NCBI RefSeq assembly: GCF_000702445.1
Contig: NZ_JNIF01000003.1
Span: 4,092,001-4,156,000 of the forward strand
Length of the DNA: 64,000 nucleotides
Source: Bryobacter aggregatus MPL3
Lineage (GTDB): Bacteria; Acidobacteriota; Terriglobia; Bryobacterales; Bryobacteraceae
Direction: 5' to 3'
Part shown: positions 8,984 to 20,004 of the stretch, in pieces
Position numbering within the stretch: the stretch's first letter is position 1
How the letters are laid out: the number at the start of each line of letters is the position of its first letter
Made by a program: the position numbers and the translations under genes
Notes under the pieces: generated by a model
Seen by the model: the letters and a program-made list of their open reading frames with translations, nothing else
Told to the model about the DNA's origin: nothing
Database searches by the model: none

Positions 8984-10752
8984 CGAATCGGAATTTTTCC
9001 GATGTTGCTGGTGACGCCCGAGACCTGGACGGCGAGGTCGACCGAGCCACTGGGCGCCGCGTTTGGAACGAGGACGTTGATCTGGTAGAGGCTGATGAAG
9101 CCGGGGGTGAGTCCCGAGAAGGAGACCGTTGCCTGGTTGCCGCCGATGTTCACCGTGGGGGTGAGGATGCTGGGACTGAGCGGGGAGAAGGGGGTGGGTT
9201 GTCCTGTGGTGGGCGCGTGTTCCACTTGGCCGAGACCGGTGAGGTACAACACGACGGTTTCACCTCGGGTGGCGGGGTTGCTGGTTGTTACGACGCTGCC
9301 GTCGGCGTGGGTGGCAACATTGGCGGCTCCATCGAGCAAGAAGAGGCCGGGTTGTGCGTTGAGAATGGGGACGGAGATGCCAGCGCTAGAGCCAGCCGAC
9401 GTAGTGACGATCACTTGCACGCGGTTTCGGCCCGACAGTGACAGGGGGGCTTGGATGGTGATCTGCTCTTGGCCCTCGAGATTCAAGACGCGGTAGACGG
9501 GGGCGGGCGCGTTGTCGAGCGAGACCTGGATGCCATTGAGAAGCGTGGGCCAGGTATTGGTGGATGGTGTGATGATCTGCCCGAGGCGCGCTCCGAGATT
9601 GGTTCCGAAGATGGTGATCATGCCGCCGGGGACGATTCCGGTTTGGAAGCTGGCGGCGTTGGTGATGCTGGCGCTGCTGATGAGGGGATTGGCGACGGCA
9701 GGAGCGGAGAGCGAACGGATGCGGTCGTTGCCGGTGTCGCCAATGAAGAGGTTGTCGGACGGAGAGATGGCGAGCGCGAGGCTGGAATTGAGTTGGGCGG
9801 CAGCGGCGGCGCCGCGATCACCCGAGAAGCCTGCGACACCGGTTCCGGCGATGGTGGTGATGATGCCGGCATAGACCTTGCGGATGCGTTGGTTTTCGGT
9901 ATCGGCGATGTAGAGAGCACCCACAGAGTCTGTAACGATGCCGCCCGGGTAACGGAGGCTGGCGGAGGTGGCTGCTGTGGCGTCGCCGGAGAAGCCGATG
10001 TTGCCGTTGCCAGCGTAGGTGGTGATGATGCCGTTGGTGCCGACGCGGCGGATGCGTTGGTTGGACTGGTCTGTGATGTAGAGCGTACCGCTACCGTCGG
10101 TGGCGAGCGCGATGGGATTGTTCAGCGCGGCTTGATTCGCTTGGCCTCCGTCGCCCGAGAAACCGGCGGCGCCGGTTCCGGCGACGGTGCTGATGGTGCC
10201 GCTGAGCGAGACTTTGCGGACTTTGTGGGTGCCTTGGTCGGCAATGTAGAGGTTGCCCGCGGGATCGACTGCGCAGCGGATGGGGAGGACGAGACTGGCG
10301 GCGCTGGCGGGTCCGCCGTCGCTGGAATCGGCGGCGATGCCGTTACCTGCGATGGTGGTGATGGTTCCGTTGGTGGCGATGCGGCGGACCCGGTGGTTGT
10401 TGAGGTCGTTGACGTAGATGTTTCCGGTGGGGTCGATGCAGACGCCGGTGGGGCTGTCGAACTGGGCCTGGAGAGCGGGGCCGTTGTCTCCGCTGAAGCC
10501 TGCGGCGCCTGTTCCGGCGATGGTGGTGATGATGCCGTTGCGGTCGACTTTACGGATGCGGTGGTTGTTCTGGTCGGCGAGAATCAGGTTGCCGGAGGCG
10601 TCACCGGCGAGGCCGACGGCGCGATTGATCTGGGCTTGGGTGGCGGGGCCATTGTCGCCCGAGTATCCCGCCGTGCCTGTGCCGGCGAGGGTCGTGATGG
10701 TTTGTGCGGAGAGTGAGATTGAAAGAACGAAGAGCGAGGCGAGCGGCTTCAT
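8980..10752 (-). CDS. Secreted NHL-repeat protein with Solibacter-type IPT-like C-terminal domain
   Basis: A 590-residue protein with a signal peptide (MKPLASLFVLSISLSAQT). About six NHL repeats of ~55 residues follow, each with an IAGTGxAGFSGDxG turn and a DxxGNLYIADxxNHRIRKV core, predicted to form a beta-propeller (residues ~19-350). The C-terminal ~230 residues (from SITNAASFQTGIVPGGMI to the end) match the TIGR03437-type domain I recall as strongly expanded in Solibacter. The role is probably extracellular binding or cell-surface interaction; no catalytic residues are seen. The repeats make the DNA internally repetitive. Confidence 0.85.
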   Translation of the reverse strand: MKPLASLFVLSISLSAQTITTLAGTGTAGYSGDNGPATQAQINRAVGLAGDASGNLILADQNNHRIRKVDRNGIITTIAGTGAAGFSGDNGPALQAQFDSPTGVCIDPTGNIYVNDLNNHRVRRIATNGTITTIAGNGIAADSSDGGPASAASLVLPIRCAVDPAGNLYIADQGTHKVRKVSLSGTISTVAGTGAAGFSGDGGQANQAALNNPIALATDGSGTLYITDQSNQRIRRVGTNGIITTYAGNGNIGFSGDATAATSASLRYPGGIVTDSVGALYIADTENQRIRKVYAGIITTIAGTGVAGFSGDRGAAAAAQLNSSLALAISPSDNLFIGDTGNDRIRSLSAPAVANPLISSASITNAASFQTGIVPGGMITIFGTNLGARLGQIITPSTNTWPTLLNGIQVSLDNAPAPVYRVLNLEGQEQITIQAPLSLSGRNRVQVIVTTSAGSSAGISVPILNAQPGLFLLDGAANVATHADGSVVTTSNPATRGETVVLYLTGLGQVEHAPTTGQPTPFSPLSPSILTPTVNIGGNQATVSFSGLTPGFISLYQINVLVPNAAPSGSVDLAVQVSGVTSNIGKIPIR

Positions 10753-10902
10753 TGCGATTGGATTTTTGGGTAGGAAGTGCCGTTACAAAGAAAATCGTTA
10801 GAGACTGGAATCCACTTGAGCCGTTCGAAACCCCACTCCGCGGCCAGCGGCTAACGTGGGTGATATGGAGAGAGGTTCGGCTATCGCTGTGAGCTGAAAC
10901 TC

Positions 10903-12027
10903 CTAAAGCGTAGATGCCGGTAAATGCCCTACCGACTGCGCCTGCGCCGGCAGCGACTTTCCGCATTTCTGGCATAAGTTCAGATCCTGATACTTCGGAC
11001 TTCCCTGCGGTAAGGCCTTAAAGTATGCCTTCACATCCGGATGTACCTTGGTCTCACCGGAAAGTACCTTGGCGACATTCAGATCGACAATATTCGCATG
11101 CCCGCAATACGCGCAGATGCGATGCCGCTCCTGATTGAAATAGAAGAGGCGCAAGTCCAATTTGCCTTCCGGCCATGCTGTCCGGAAGTGATTCTCGGTG
11201 TACTTTCGGAAGTGATCTGGTGGCAAACCGGTTGTTAGCGATTCGTCATGAATCTTCTCAAATTCATAAAGGCGCTGGCCGGTCACTGAGTAGTAAACAT
11301 GAATCAACTCATGCGCAAAACCAATCGCCACCGGACGCTTTCCCTTCGTACCGTCGAAGGCGCAAGTCACTTCGTCCTTTGTCAGATCAACGCCAATCAC
11401 GGCCGGGACACCTGTGCCTCTCTCGAGCCATGGCTCCAGCTTGCGCGCGATCATCGTGTACTGCTCGGCGGCTGTAAAGAGACAGTCCCCGCCGGCAAGA
11501 AATTTCGTGAGCGCTTTTTCCCACTGCTTTTCGAGAGAAGAGATCGTACTTTCCTTGACGGAATTTGACGAAAACAGACCTTTGGGCGAGAACATCGGTG
11601 CTGTCTTCGGTGCGCCAAACTTGACGTCGGCGGCATCGAGCGCTTTCACTTGCGCGGGTGTGAACGCATAGTTCGTCAGACCTGGGGTGGGCGCGACGAG
11701 TTGCTTGGCCAGTTTGTCTGCCGTCGAGAAAAAGCTCTTGGAGAGCGAGGCTTGGAGTTGTTTCCGCGCCTCCACCCAGTTGTTCGTGCGGAACGCGGCG
11801 ATCAGTTTGTAATATTGATTCTCGCCAGAGACAGAGGTTGTGTTGTTCCCCTTCTTGATGCCGATCGTATGCGGGGTGCTATCCAGCTCGCGGATGAAGT
11901 CTTTTCCGAGATCATCTTTCAGAGCCCACAATTCGTCAAACAGGATCTTCACTTTCTTCTGAAAGTCATCGTCCCCGATGATGTCAAATTTTGAGCTTAC
12001 GAATGCAGTGTTGGTATAGCCTGCCAA
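10903..12027 (-). CDS. M91-like (NleD-type) metallopeptidase with C-terminal zinc ribbon
   Basis: A 374-residue protein. HELIHVYYSVTG at ~239-250 is the HExxH zinc-protease motif, and DESLTTGLPPD then KYTENHFR (~261-282) match the rest of the M91 family pattern, founded on the host-cell effector NleD. Two CxxC pairs (CAYC 305-308, CQKC 352-355) add a probable zinc ribbon. The ~200-residue N-terminus is helical and unrecognised. There is no signal peptide, so any export would need a dedicated route. It is alone between the NHL and MFS genes, with 150 featureless bases downstream. It could act as a toxin or as a housekeeping protease. Confidence 0.72.
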   Translation of the reverse strand: MAGYTNTAFVSSKFDIIGDDDFQKKVKILFDELWALKDDLGKDFIRELDSTPHTIGIKKGNNTTSVSGENQYYKLIAAFRTNNWVEARKQLQASLSKSFFSTADKLAKQLVAPTPGLTNYAFTPAQVKALDAADVKFGAPKTAPMFSPKGLFSSNSVKESTISSLEKQWEKALTKFLAGGDCLFTAAEQYTMIARKLEPWLERGTGVPAVIGVDLTKDEVTCAFDGTKGKRPVAIGFAHELIHVYYSVTGQRLYEFEKIHDESLTTGLPPDHFRKYTENHFRTAWPEGKLDLRLFYFNQERHRICAYCGHANIVDLNVAKVLSGETKVHPDVKAYFKALPQGSPKYQDLNLCQKCGKSLPAQAQSVGHLPASTL

Positions 12028-16107: not shown

Positions 16108-16530
16108 ATGAAGTACAGTGACACGTATGCGGTCAATGCTCCCCAGGCGATCGAGGAGAGTTTTGAGACTGAGGTCATCGTTGTCAACCTCGAAATTGGG
16201 ACTTACTTTTCTTTGCGAGACAGTGCTGCCGATGCCTGGATTCGCATAACGGAGGGCCAGAGCGCGGAAGCGATCTGTGCGGCCTGGACCGTTCAGTTTC
16301 CTGAAGTTGTGTCGTTGCAAGAAGATCTGGAGAAGTTCTTTGCCGAGTTGCTGGCCGAGGGTTTGATTCGGGTGGAACCGCGCAGTGCGGCGGAGACCGT
16401 GAAGTCGATTCCGTTCTCTACTTATCAGGCTCCGGCGTTGGAAAAGTACACCGACATGCAGGATCTTCTGTTGCTTGATCCTGTGCACGATGTGGACGAG
16501 ACGGGGTGGCCGGCTCCGCGACCCCAATGA
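16108..16530 (+). CDS. PqqD-like peptide-binding protein with a distinctive C-terminal tail
   Basis: A 140-residue protein. Residues ~1-92 have the PqqD/RRE layout: beta strands EVIVVNLEIGTYFSL, a helix DSAADAWIRITEG, then AEAICAAW and a C-terminal helix VVSLQEDLEKFFAELLAEGLI. PqqD-family proteins bind precursor peptides for modifying enzymes. Beyond the fold there is a ~45-residue tail ending DMQDLLLLDPVHDVDETGWP (117-136) and a few more residues. The tail has no role in known PqqD domains and could be an attached substrate or docking peptide. The stop overlaps the next start (ATGA), so it is coupled to the kinase. Confidence 0.78.
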   Translation: MKYSDTYAVNAPQAIEESFETEVIVVNLEIGTYFSLRDSAADAWIRITEGQSAEAICAAWTVQFPEVVSLQEDLEKFFAELLAEGLIRVEPRSAAETVKSIPFSTYQAPALEKYTDMQDLLLLDPVHDVDETGWPAPRPQ

Positions 16531-17561
16531 GCCAGGAGCGATACTTTTCATCCTGTATCGCACTCGCAGATTCGGCAACCGAAAATACGGGGAAGCTAGA
16601 GCAGGTATTTGCTCTGGGAAAACAACGACTTCGTGCGCGGTTTGCGGGCGAGGCCTTAGTTTCGCATCTGACACGGGCAATGGCCCATCTGACGGTGCCT
16701 GATTCCACCGCGACGGTAAGCGTTACTTGTTTCGATTCGGCTTCGACCGGGGTTGCGATGCATCCGCCTCCTTGGGACCAGGATTCCTATCTGGCGAATG
16801 GGGCGATTCGGGGCTGGGGCCAGGGCCGTTACCGGGCGCACTATATCCAGAGTCAGCATCTGTTGCATTTGATGGATCTGGAGAGCGGCTGTGCGCTGTA
16901 TTGGACGCAGAATCGCAAGTTTGTGCCTTGGTGGGAGCAGACCTTTCCTTTCCGGCAATTGATTCATTGGGGCATGGAGAAGCGAGCGTTGCAGCCGGTG
17001 CATGCGGGCGCGGTGGGCTTTGCCGATGGCGGGGTGTTGTTGGCGGGAAAGAGCGGGTCTGGGAAATCGACGTCGACCTTGAGCTGTTTGCATTCGCCTT
17101 TGCTCTATGCGGGGGATGATTACGTTTTGCTCGATCATGAAGGCGAAGAGCCTTGGGTGCATAGCTTGTATGCGACGGCGAAGGTGGTGCCGGACAATTT
17201 GCATCGCTTGCCGTGGTTGCGGGATTGGGTGGTGAATCCGGAGGAGTTGGGCGAACAGAAGGCCGTTGTCTATGTGAACGAGCAGGCGGCCGAGCGGGTG
17301 TCACGAGGGTTTCCGATTCGGGCGATTCTGTTACCGCGGGTGACGGGGGAGAAGCGGACGCGGATTGTTCCAGCAACGGCGGGGGAAGCGATGCAGGCAT
17401 TGGCGCCGACCTCCGTGTTTCATCTCAATGGTGATTCGATGGGAATCATGCGGAAGGTGTCGCGGGTGGTGCGAGCGGTTCCAGCGTATTGGCTGGAAGC
17501 GGGGACTGAACTCGAACAGATTCCGGACGCTATTTGTGGGTTACTGGGGAGGCGCGCATGA
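16527..17561 (+). CDS. HPr-kinase-like serine kinase
   Basis: A 344-residue protein. The C-terminal half holds a Walker A loop GKSGSGKST (174-182) preceded by PVHAGAVGFADGGVLLA and followed by YAGDDYVLL (194-202), the arrangement of HprK-type kinases; HAGAV is typical of HprK relatives that act on peptides or proteins other than HPr. The N-terminal half is poorly conserved. ATG 16527 overlaps the previous stop; a start at 16506 would overlap more. Homologues in lasso-peptide clusters phosphorylate the precursor's C-terminal residue, but no lasso enzymes are present here. Confidence 0.8.
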   Translation: MSQERYFSSCIALADSATENTGKLEQVFALGKQRLRARFAGEALVSHLTRAMAHLTVPDSTATVSVTCFDSASTGVAMHPPPWDQDSYLANGAIRGWGQGRYRAHYIQSQHLLHLMDLESGCALYWTQNRKFVPWWEQTFPFRQLIHWGMEKRALQPVHAGAVGFADGGVLLAGKSGSGKSTSTLSCLHSPLLYAGDDYVLLDHEGEEPWVHSLYATAKVVPDNLHRLPWLRDWVVNPEELGEQKAVVYVNEQAAERVSRGFPIRAILLPRVTGEKRTRIVPATAGEAMQALAPTSVFHLNGDSMGIMRKVSRVVRAVPAYWLEAGTELEQIPDAICGLLGRRA

Positions 17562-18919
17562 TTTCGGTTGTGATTCCGGCCAAGAATGCGGAGCGATTTC
17601 TTCCGGTGGCCTTGGCGAGTGTCGATGAGCAGGGTCATGAAGATTTTGAGATTCTCGTCATCGACGATCACTCGACGGATGGCACGGCGGAGATCGCCAG
17701 ACGGCATCCGCGAACGAAACTCCTCACGCTGGAGGGAAAGACCGGACCGGGAGCGGCACGCAATTTGGGGATTGAGCGGGCGCAAGGGGAGTTTGTTGCG
17801 TTTCTCGATGCCGATGACGTTTGGACTCCCTACAAGACGCGGGTGCAGACCGCGCGCTTGTTGGCACAGCCACATCTCCAGGGGGTGTTGGGGCGGGCGC
17901 GGTGGGTGGCGATGGGCGAAGGGGTGTTGCCCAGACTGCGCTATGAAACCGACGAGGATTTGGTTCCGATGTATCTGTTTGGCGCGGGACTCTTTCGTAA
18001 ATCCTATCTGGAGCAGTTGGGGCCGATCGATGAGGGCTTGATCTACGGCGAGGATCAGGACTTCTTCATGCGGGTGCTTGAATCTGGCGAGCCGATTCTG
18101 ACCCTGCGCGATCAGGTGATGGAATACCGGATCCATGGCCAGAATATGACGACCGGGATGACGCAGCAATCGATGAATCTTGTTGCGGTTCTGCGGAAAA
18201 GTCTAGCGCGCCGGAAGGCGGCTGGTATAGGGGCCTTACGAACCTGGAAAAGCCTTGATGAGTTTGCGACCGCGATGATCTCGGTGGTGATTCCGGCTTA
18301 CAACGCAGAGAAGACGCTGGGGCGTGCGATTGAGAGCGCGCTGGGGCAGACGCTGGCGCCGCTCGAGGTGATTGTTGTCGATGATGGATCGAGCGATGGA
18401 ACGGCAGCGGTTGCGCGCAGTTTTGGCGAGCGGGTGCGGTTGTTGGTGCAGCCGAATGGAGGAGTTGGGGCAGCCCGGAATACCGGCATTCTGGCCTCTG
18501 TGGGAAACCAGATCGGGCTGCTCGATAGCGACGATGTGTGGCGTCCAGACAAGCTCGAGAAGCAGTGGGCGGCGCTGACGAAAGCGCCTTATCCGGAACT
18601 GGTTTTTGGACAGGTGGAGCAGGTGGTGGATGCGACGGGAGTGGTTTTGGGGCAGCAGCCGGGCGTCAATGCGACGGGGTTGCTGGCGCGGCGCAGTGTG
18701 TATGAGCGTGCCGGGTTGTACCGGCCGGAACTGAAGGCTGGCGAGTTTGTGGATTGGTATGCGCGAGCGGTGGAGGCGGGGCTGAAATCGGTGATTCTAC
18801 CCGATGTGTTGGCGGAGCGCCGGCAGCGTTCGGACAGCATGATGGGAGCGAAGCCCGCACTGGCACGAGAGTACTTGCGCGTGTTGAAGGATTCGCTCGA
18901 TCGGAGGCGTAAAGTTTAA
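17558..18919 (+). CDS. Double-domain family 2 glycosyltransferase
   Basis: A 453-residue protein with two complete GT-A family 2 domains in one frame. Domain 1 starts MISVVIPAKNAERFLP with the metal-binding LDADDVW (83-89). Domain 2 starts at Met240 (MISVVIPAYNAEKTLG) with LDSDDVW (322-328). Both have the LVIDDHSTDGT / VVDDGSSDGT nucleotide motif and GPGAARNLGI / GVGAARNTGI. The two halves look like related enzymes joined by a short linker. The ATG overlaps the kinase stop (ATGA). It has no transmembrane segments. Sugar donor and acceptor are unknown. Confidence 0.86.
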   Translation: MISVVIPAKNAERFLPVALASVDEQGHEDFEILVIDDHSTDGTAEIARRHPRTKLLTLEGKTGPGAARNLGIERAQGEFVAFLDADDVWTPYKTRVQTARLLAQPHLQGVLGRARWVAMGEGVLPRLRYETDEDLVPMYLFGAGLFRKSYLEQLGPIDEGLIYGEDQDFFMRVLESGEPILTLRDQVMEYRIHGQNMTTGMTQQSMNLVAVLRKSLARRKAAGIGALRTWKSLDEFATAMISVVIPAYNAEKTLGRAIESALGQTLAPLEVIVVDDGSSDGTAAVARSFGERVRLLVQPNGGVGAARNTGILASVGNQIGLLDSDDVWRPDKLEKQWAALTKAPYPELVFGQVEQVVDATGVVLGQQPGVNATGLLARRSVYERAGLYRPELKAGEFVDWYARAVEAGLKSVILPDVLAERRQRSDSMMGAKPALAREYLRVLKDSLDRRRKV

Positions 18920-20004
18920 TGCTGGACGTTCTCCTGCTCGAAGCCGCACTTGCACCGAAGGTCCGGGCGATCAAGGCTTGGCAGGAGTGGTATGCCGCAA
19001 CGCAACTGGAGCATGTGCCAGGGGCTTCTTACCGTTTGTTGCCCTTGGTGCATGCGCATCTGGTGGAAGTGGGGTATGCGGGCAGCGAACTCAGCCGGAT
19101 CAAGGGGATTCGGAAGAAGCTTTGGCTCGAAGGGGAGCAGCGGGTGTATCGCGGTGTTCCGGTATTGCGGGAGTTGCAGGAACGATTTGGGCGTGTGGTG
19201 TTGTTGAAGGGTGCGCCGCTCGCCTCGCTTTATTATCGGGATTTTGGGTTGCGGGCGATGCATGACCTGGATGTTCTGGTGGAGGAAGAGCGGGCGATCG
19301 ATGTGATCGATTTTCTGATGCAGCAGGGCTGTGAGATTGATCTACATCCGACGCCGTTGCGGCTGGATGCGGAGTTTACGACCTTCCGGCATGGGGCAGG
19401 CTTTCGGCATCCGGGCGGGGTGGAGTTCGACATCCATTGGCGGATGTCCTATCTGGGGTCCAGACCGGGGATCGATGGCCCGGTGCGGGAGAAGGTGGAA
19501 GCGTTTCCGTTGAAGGGGGGCGAGTTCTGGACGCTCTGCACCACGGATCACTTCTTTCATACTTTGATCCATGGGATCTTGTACAACCCATCGCCGGCAT
19601 CGCGGTGGGTGGCCGATGCGGTGTGGATCTTGCAGTCGGGGTGTCCCGTTGACTTTGGACGGATTTCGGAACTGAGTGTTCATTACGGTGTGGAACCGTA
19701 TGTAAGCGCGGCGCTGGCTTGTCTGCGGGAGCAGTTTGGCTTGGATGTGCCGGTGCTGGAGTTTGGTCAGACCTCGTTCTGGAAGCAGATCGAGTTTCGG
19801 CGTGAGACGACGGACTGGTATGAGAGTGGACCGCATGTCTTTGTGGCGAGTACGCTTTACCGCTATGGGCGAACAGGTGCGTCGTATTGGAATCTGCCGC
19901 GCCTCATGCGATTTTGCCAATACCAGATGGATTTGACGACGATGGAAGCGGTGCGGGAGCGGGGGCGGCGTTTAACGAGGCGACTGCGCGGTGGTGGTGT
20001 TTAG
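18919..20004 (+). CDS. Nucleotidyltransferase family protein (PF14907-like)
   Basis: A 361-residue protein of the nucleotidyltransferase_5 type. The landmark is LLKGAPLASLYYRDFGLRAMHDLDVLV (95-121), where Asp116 and Asp118 are the metal-binding pair. A helical C-terminal half follows with HFFHTLIHGI. The start codon shares a base with the stop of the glycosyltransferase (TAATG). Family members occur next to HprK-like kinases in lasso-peptide clusters, where they have been linked to attaching hexose to phosphorylated peptide. The 3' end overlaps the convergent kinase gene by 33 bases. Confidence 0.8.
   Translation: MLDVLLLEAALAPKVRAIKAWQEWYAATQLEHVPGASYRLLPLVHAHLVEVGYAGSELSRIKGIRKKLWLEGEQRVYRGVPVLRELQERFGRVVLLKGAPLASLYYRDFGLRAMHDLDVLVEEERAIDVIDFLMQQGCEIDLHPTPLRLDAEFTTFRHGAGFRHPGGVEFDIHWRMSYLGSRPGIDGPVREKVEAFPLKGGEFWTLCTTDHFFHTLIHGILYNPSPASRWVADAVWILQSGCPVDFGRISELSVHYGVEPYVSAALACLREQFGLDVPVLEFGQTSFWKQIEFRRETTDWYESGPHVFVASTLYRYGRTGASYWNLPRLMRFCQYQMDLTTMEAVRERGRRLTRRLRGGGV

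Follow-up and report, generated by a model that had tools for sequence, protein, structure and literature searches.

Linear polyphosphorylated peptides (LPPs), described only in 2026, are the products of systems that comprise a RiPP recognition element (RRE; RiPP, ribosomally synthesized and post-translationally modified peptide), an HprK kinase, a nucleoside triphosphate (NTP) transferase, an MsbA-like transporter, an SpI peptidase and a separate precursor (Popov et al. 2026, PMC13381572). Paeninodin, Bsf and pseudomycoidin (with PsmK and PsmN) are phosphorylated or glycosylated lasso peptides (PMC9266682, PMC10368454). Here we describe a related cassette of four genes in a 64,000-nucleotide stretch of the Bryobacter aggregatus MPL3 genome (contig NZ_JNIF01000003.1, positions 4,092,001 to 4,156,000; hereafter the window). 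It encodes a PqqD-like RRE protein (P0001), an HprK-like kinase (P0002), a double family 2 glycosyltransferase (GT2; P0003) and a nucleotidyltransferase family protein (NTF; P0004). The explanation we favour, tentatively and short of calling it probable, is a modification operon related to LPP and phosphorylated lasso systems. Its RRE would have the leader built in, in cis, and would offer a conserved segment to the kinase, the glycosyltransferases and the NTF. The analysis suggests that the cassette is related to known systems of peptide modification, occurs widely and has not been described before; no description of it was found in a literature search whose coverage excluded bioRxiv and most subscription journals.

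The argument turns on the C-terminal tail of the RRE protein. After a variable linker of 17–30 residues, in which no column between 88 and 105 is identical in more than 35 of 77 proteins, the tail follows the consensus [F/Y]xxPxLxKYTDMQDLLLLDPIHEVDxxGWP. Relatives were retrieved by scanning 84,980 species genomes with the pattern [DE]LLL[LA]DPIH, which yielded 243 stretches, 227 of them encoding relatives, and the best 80 were kept. The invariance of tail positions 119–127 is partly produced by this pattern, and these positions were excluded as evidence. Outside the pattern, near-fixed columns (n=77) include the aromatic residue at 106 (76), P109 (76), D116 (77) and M117 (75), and at the C-terminal end G133 (76), W134 (75) and P135 (77). 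A cassette-type GT2 was present in the stretch read for 11 of 12 tail-bearing PqqDs versus 0 of 25 tail-less ones (Fisher 1.4e-8), the latter comprising 23 loci from one search and two (L048 and L154) from another, and including five of less than 9 kb, where GT2 absence is weak evidence. One protein of the tail-less set, in L045, was scored as such though it ends in a different leader-like tail.

The first half of the tail fits [Y/W]xxPx[L/V/I/F/A], with Phe mostly replacing Tyr. Lasso and LPP RREs bind this motif, and in LppB the residue Asp70 hydrogen-bonds the leader tyrosine (PMC13381572). In a HMMER alignment with 9x8z, LppB D70, F74, M78 and L83 (numbering of the same paper) correspond to P0001 residues 73, 77, 81 and 86. 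Were the tail to dock as a leader does, Tyr at 106 should be accompanied by an acidic residue at 73. An acid (D/E73) was found in 10 of 15 proteins with Y106 and in 13 of 74 with other residues there (p 3e-4; the first form tested). In a permutation scan of Tyr against Phe at 106, column 73 came first of 85 (z 7.8, next 4.4). In the form chosen afterwards, D73 accompanies Y/W106 in 12 of 19 proteins and F106 in 2 of 65. For this form column 73 ranked best of 77 in a Pagel test on a tree (likelihood ratio 28.6, next 13.5); 150 simulations without coupling gave a maximum of 11.5, against 30.7 for the 73–106 pair, and none reached the observed value. The strongest RRE–tail pair in an all-column scan was E84–K113, D/E84 being present in 67 of 69 proteins with K/R113 and absent in 12 of the 20 others; we regard this pair as weaker evidence than 73–106. 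The AlphaFold (AF2) model of P0001 has a mean predicted local distance difference test (pLDDT) score of 90 for residues 101–110, 73 for 111–120, 51 for 121–130 and 57 for 131–140. We consider it well supported, by co-variation and modelling, that the [F/Y/W]xxPxL-x-K segment would occupy the leader cleft of P0001's own RRE. The tail would be split into a docking half (about 106–115) and an exposed half (about 116–135), and the latter, DMQ[D/E]LLLxDPIHxVxxxGWP, could be a platform that brings together the HprK-like kinase, the NTF and the dedicated GT2s.

The enzymes accompany the tail across genomes. The sequence-only reading had named a lack of co-conservation of the four genes as refuting a distinct system, and this is not borne out. 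Genes were scored as present wherever they lay in the locus as fetched, with up to 10 kb on each side, at profile scores above 200 (HprK), 190 (GT2), 100 (NTF) or 400 (the ATP-binding cassette, or ABC, transporter). Among the best 80 of 227 loci, the numbers with HprK, GT2, NTF and an MsbA-like ABC transporter were 68, 68, 61 and 31; in the well-flanked subset (at least 5 kb before and at least 8 kb after PqqD, n=40) they were 38, 38, 36 and 18, and 34 of these 40 have HprK, GT2 and NTF in addition to PqqD. Three loci, L080, L094 and L095, are apparently the contigs of L005–L007 of the phylum search, having equal lengths; they are included in the 80-locus counts and omitted from the 91-row alignment. 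HprK–GT2 fusions occur in seven loci (L070, L073, L109, L110, L117, L128 and L130; seven by motif, four of them read directly), and five loci (the window, L055, L092, L093 and L102) have GT2 frames with two domains, tying the HprK and GT2 enzymes together. Cassette relatives, mostly metagenome-assembled, come from Chloroflexota, 'Deltaproteobacteria', Acidobacteria, Verrucomicrobiota, Cyanobacteria, Bacteroidetes, Planctomycete lineages, Proteobacteria and others, and further from Nitrospirae, Gemmatimonadetes, an acidimicrobial actinobacterium and Chlamydiae. In the explanation favoured here the operon would be one that moves horizontally, and the MsbA-like transporter, where present, may export the product. 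In one pair of loci (L042/L043) the gene order is HprK-NTF-PqqD-GT2 and the tail, GEAPTLTCFEDLQELLLIDPIHQVDISEGWP, is without the aromatic residue at 106.

Several points weigh against this reading. HprK and GT2 each went undetected in 12 of the 80 loci, and contig ends explain some of these gaps, but not those in the well-flanked L066, L085 and L119. The tail is looser in 13 relatives retrieved by whole-protein similarity without the pattern (aromatic 106 in 9, P109 in 12, D116 in 13, M117 in 9, D124 in 13 and P125 in 13; at the C-terminal end W134 in 12, G133 in 10 and P135 in 10). The grouping of Tyr with Trp at 106 and the restriction to Asp at 73 were chosen after the first Y106–D/E73 result had been seen, and a general coupling scan puts 73–106 third of 2838 RRE–tail pairs and sixth of 8128 overall, among pairs without obvious meaning. 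E84–K113 was discovered by scanning, and its Pagel p of 6e-5 alone would fail correction for so many tests. Docking in the AF2 model was read, for one target, from confidence and DSSP rather than from measured contacts, and this evidence does not tell docking in cis from docking in trans within a dimer. Finally, the exposed half may be the product and not a platform.

The sequence-only reading had described the cassette as being without a visible precursor, and had suggested that a peptide or protein may be its substrate. The first statement missed the leader-like tail on the PqqD protein; as to the second, an unseen separate peptide found no support, although the scan is able to find lasso-like precursors beside tail-less PqqDs. 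A comparison of 10,740 small open reading frames (ORFs) gave no plausible conserved peptide: the largest cluster spanned 6 loci, those displayed have the look of shadow frames or of pairs from close relatives, and motif matches among small ORFs numbered 5, versus 18 in reversed sequence. As a positive control, a lasso-type pattern matched 8 small ORFs versus 1 in reversed sequence in the 25 tail-less loci (394 kb), and seven of these eight, lying beside tail-less PqqDs, look like lasso precursors with clear leaders. The same pattern in 90 tail-bearing loci (1397 kb) gave 5 forward and 8 reversed matches. A looser LPP-type pattern was without power (29 versus 29 reversed in tail-less, 97 versus 142 reversed in tail-bearing loci). 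In genomes of the window's own phylum, lasso-like precursor ORFs adjoin the tail-less PqqDs of L050, L137, L143, L148 and L151. The leader seems, from these sequence comparisons, to have been transferred to the recognition protein. In another family, engineering has demonstrated that a leader placed C-terminal to its core can work (PMC13003496).

If HprK acted on a tail Ser or Thr, such a residue should be kept. S/T115 is absent in 17 of 91 proteins, with HprK in the locus for 15 of those 17, and the tails of L090 and L091 have no Ser or Thr at all, in the presence of HprK, GT2 and NTF. Phosphorylation of T/S115 by HprK as the general reaction is ruled out by these loci, and the two tails without Ser/Thr indicate that tail Ser/Thr is not a universal phospho-acceptor. 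The sequence-only reading had included the PqqD tail among its candidate peptides: the tail does bear a leader motif, while a +80 Da shift on a tail Ser/Thr cannot be the general outcome, as L090 and L091 illustrate. The preference for S/T/D/N at 115 could equally be explained by a helix N-cap. In LppA the phosphorylated serine S3 lies at +18 from the first motif residue (PMC13381572). In our tails Asp occupies the same register in all 13 relatives that were retrieved independently of the tail pattern, 4 of which have no aromatic residue at the first motif position. The tail therefore looks like a leader whose acceptor may have been replaced by a non-reactive or phosphate-mimicking residue, and the platform role is preferred for the exposed half because tail Ser/Thr is not kept and Asp stands at the phospho-Ser register. 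On this platform the enzymes would build a phosphorylated glycan, its acceptor being other than tail Ser/Thr, either another tail residue or a second, recruited molecule.

The same observations bear on two explanations in which the tail itself is modified. One would make P0001 its own RiPP precursor, with the tail as leader plus core, the kinase, GT2 and NTF modifying residues of DPIHEVDxxGWP (Asp124, His127 or Trp134), and the modified tail perhaps cut off and exported. We consider this somewhat improbable. It would account for the tail being in the LPP precursor register (PMC13381572), with Asp at +18 in all 13 pattern-free relatives, for the separate precursor of tail-less PqqD loci being missing from tail-bearing ones and for the exporter in 31 of 80 loci; it fits poorly with the lack of a conserved Ser/Thr (17 of 91 without S/T115, none in the tails of L090 and L091) and of any peptidase among the commonest neighbour families listed, and a sequence that hardly changes from phylum to phylum is not what a diversifying product would show, although for a cofactor it would be fitting. 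The other, which we think unlikely, is a self-primed system in which the RRE-bound tail is the acceptor. The kinase, NTF and GT2s would activate or decorate the conserved Asp at the LPP phospho-Ser register, or else the His or Trp further along. If so, a folded recognition protein would be the protein primer for a phosphoglycan or the precursor of a conserved cofactor-like product. To our knowledge, this would be the first RiPP-type pathway with recognition element, leader and substrate in one natural polypeptide.

The docking evidence set out above also speaks for a gated RRE. Here the tail would inhibit its own RRE as a pseudo-leader until an unlinked peptide or protein substrate takes its place and is modified by HprK, NTF and GT2; Asp at the phospho-acceptor register would then give a non-reactive pseudo-substrate. 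This leaves the strong conservation of the exposed half (116–135) unexplained, and neither another tail-like sequence (E<=10) nor another PqqD scoring above the cut-off is present in the genome, though a substrate free of the motif would escape such detection. On balance we find gating quite doubtful, yet we keep it, like the self-precursor explanation, as a serious rival of the platform.

A last possibility is an ordinary polysaccharide or lasso island with a vestigial PqqD protein. We surveyed 340 other ORFs near PqqD, called mechanically and analysed in three batches (120, 120 and 100) with 25 families listed per batch. Among the families listed, GT1/GT4 glycosyltransferases were commonest (Glyco_trans_1_4 in 5/120, 11/120 and 8/100), followed by epimerases, TPR proteins and methyltransferases, and none was a lasso cyclase, lasso protease or signal peptidase. 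The prominence of GT1/GT4 enzymes speaks for an island, as does the frequent location of LPP and paeninodin loci of Bacilli within capsule loci (PMC13381572). The conservation and co-variation of the tail, the lack of GT2s beside tail-less PqqDs (0/25) and the window flanks, a 3-keto-disaccharide hydrolase gene and a Ser/Thr kinase gene with no polysaccharide locus, all argue the other way, and we hold this explanation to be highly improbable. The sequence-only reading had named a standard lasso or exopolysaccharide pathway consistently nearby as telling against a distinct system. This is not borne out: no lasso genes appeared among the families listed, although GT1/GT4 enzymes were the commonest there.

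In the window (Table 1), all three gene junctions overlap, by ATGA, ATGA and TAATG in gene order, each start codon (the HprK ATG at 16527, GT2 at 17558, NTF at 18919) overlapping the preceding gene. The PqqD protein has no match in 7 other genomes of the genus searched. In one congener (L171, a 3.5 kb contig) the hydrolase gene directly adjoins the Ser/Thr kinase gene with the cassette absent between them, so the four-gene block looks to have been gained or lost as a single piece; five further congener stretches (L166–L170) keep the hydrolase gene and hold neither cassette nor Ser/Thr kinase in the stretch fetched. A relative in Crinalium (L033) lies on a cyanobacterial plasmid typed as mobilizable (NC_019735.1, 5896-17248), where the order is PqqD-NTF-HprK-FkbM methyltransferase-GT; the opposite strand encodes a further GT, a second NTF and an ABC transporter. 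The window itself contains no MsbA-like ABC transporter (cassette-type ABC profile, E<=1e-4), and PADLOC gives no defence system match at E<=0.01. An ORF at 10903-12027 (-), adjacent to a major facilitator superfamily (MFS) transporter, matches Peptidase_M91 with a borderline score of 25 bits, which equals the cut-off.

Table 1. Coordinates, in the window, of the cassette genes and of the parts of P0001
Feature	Position	Strand	Basis
PqqD-like RRE protein with leader-like C-terminal tail (P0001, 140 aa)	16108..16530	+	Pfam PqqD 3.1e-10
RRE (PqqD) domain, residues 22-87, including D73, F77, L81, E84, L86	16171..16368	+	Pfam range
Tail, residues 106-135, YQAPALEKYTDMQDLLLLDPVHDVDETGWP	16423..16512	+	column counts, co-variation, pLDDT
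HprK-like kinase (P0002, 344 aa); P-loop GKSGSGKS 174-181, H159, D197-D198	16527..17561	+	family profile
Double GT2 glycosyltransferase (P0003, 453 aa)	17558..18919	+	two Glycos_transf_2 stretches, 1.7e-64
NTF protein (P0004, 361 aa)	18919..20004	+	NTP_transf_5/PF14907 1.9e-26

Taken alone, P0002 falls under the Pfam Hpr_kinase_C cut-off (19 bits vs 33.3) and matches the NCBIfam HprK-related kinases A and B (TIGR04352, TIGR04355) weakly, at 20.8 and 25.3 bits against curated cut-offs of 200; these belong to the same kinase superfamily, and P0002 lies far under their cut-offs. A 21-sequence family profile, by contrast with the single protein, matches HPr kinase structures (1jb1, 3.3e-5), and the catalytic residues are kept in relatives (His 79/79, P-loop Lys 78/79, Asp 75/79 and Asp 77/79), the same His-Lys-Asp-Asp set required by lasso kinases (PMC9266682). 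The predicted HprK assignment is thus weak for the single sequence and firm for the family. In the GT2s a DD pair is present in 178 of 178 aligned domains, both halves of P0003 among them. The families, coordinates and junctions named by the sequence-only reading, its added double glycosyltransferase, its absence of local lasso core genes and its kinship to phosphorylated lasso systems all agree with these results.

Other tails were met during the search. The PqqD of L045 (frame 9748-12003, -), in a locus without the GT2 cassette, ends in YVSPHMEKHGKLDQLMLSGE, which is lasso-leader-like with almost no core. Here, too, an RRE may have its own leader, either independently or as the ancestral state. 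L044 and L046 have variant tails, YxxPxLxAYHDMADLLALDPP..., forming a second subgroup without DPIH and the GWP ending; GT2 occurs in both loci, HprK and NTF also in L046, and both were excluded from the co-variation analysis. A short tail-like fragment in L024/L047 has its frame broken by stops and was excluded from counts, L047 being dropped; a second place in G349, on C316, was not among the fetched loci.

Compared with LPP, the cassette has in common a discrete RRE, an HprK-like kinase and an NTP transferase without a macrolactam cyclase, as well as the YxxP-type RRE-binding motif and pocket residues (LppB D70/F74 = D73/F77) (PMC13381572). P0001 is a discrete RRE with a lasso/LPP-type cleft, and the NTP transferase is taken here as PF14907. 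The MsbA-like transporter, an LPP feature, accompanies only part of the cassette relatives, and the separate precursor, SpI-like leader peptidase and phospho-Ser of LPP (PMC13381572) contrast with a motif on the RRE itself and Asp at the phospho-Ser register. No separate precursor bearing the LPP motif YxxPxVLxHQxIxFETxxS was found in tail-bearing loci, no SpI-like leader peptidase lies among the ten flanking window ORFs (no genome-wide search was made), and the place of the phosphorylated core Ser is, judged from the protein sequence, taken by Asp. Since the separate precursor, SpI peptidase and phospho-Ser are missing as far as tested, the cassette is not filed as LPP. The LPP nucleotidyltransferase was inactive in the test host, and its authors suggest a partner outside the core cluster (PMC13381572); a compact operon that unites kinase, NTF and glycosyltransferases with a built-in leader would make HprK and NTF chemistry testable with four genes, no separate precursor having to be found first.

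With the phosphorylated lasso systems the cassette has in common an HprK-like kinase with His-Lys-Asp-Asp, an RRE B1 protein and the YxxPxL motif, and PsmN, annotated as a nucleotidyltransferase and linked to a hexose on phospho-Ser, is comparable to the cassette NTF (PMC9266682, PMC10368454). The cassette does have a YxxPxL-type leader of the lasso kind, but the RRE protein itself bears it, C-terminally. The B2 leader protease (PF13471, Transglut_core3) has no match anywhere in the genome (E<=0.01), and no macrolactam cyclase lies in the window, the genome's five Asn_synthase (PF00733) matches, two of them full length, all being outside it. Unlike the phosphorylated lasso systems, the cassette has no cyclase, B2 protease or separate precursor, and adds GT2s. 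The VIA-align table, which has no PbaB1 or LppB entry, excludes nothing. Mycofactocin involves the RRE MftB, the GT2 MftF, a radical SAM (S-adenosylmethionine) enzyme and the MftA peptide; the likeness is the pairing of RRE and GT2, although the cassette has a kinase and NTF instead of a radical SAM enzyme and MftA, and P0003 scores 126.7 bits against the MftF model, under the cut-off of 280. Dedicated GT2s are at the core of the cassette, unlike in LPP. Finally, LPP is restricted to Bacillota according to its authors (PMC13381572), whereas the cassette, in which an RRE seems to have turned from a receptor of peptides into a self-liganded protein, occurs in many phyla.

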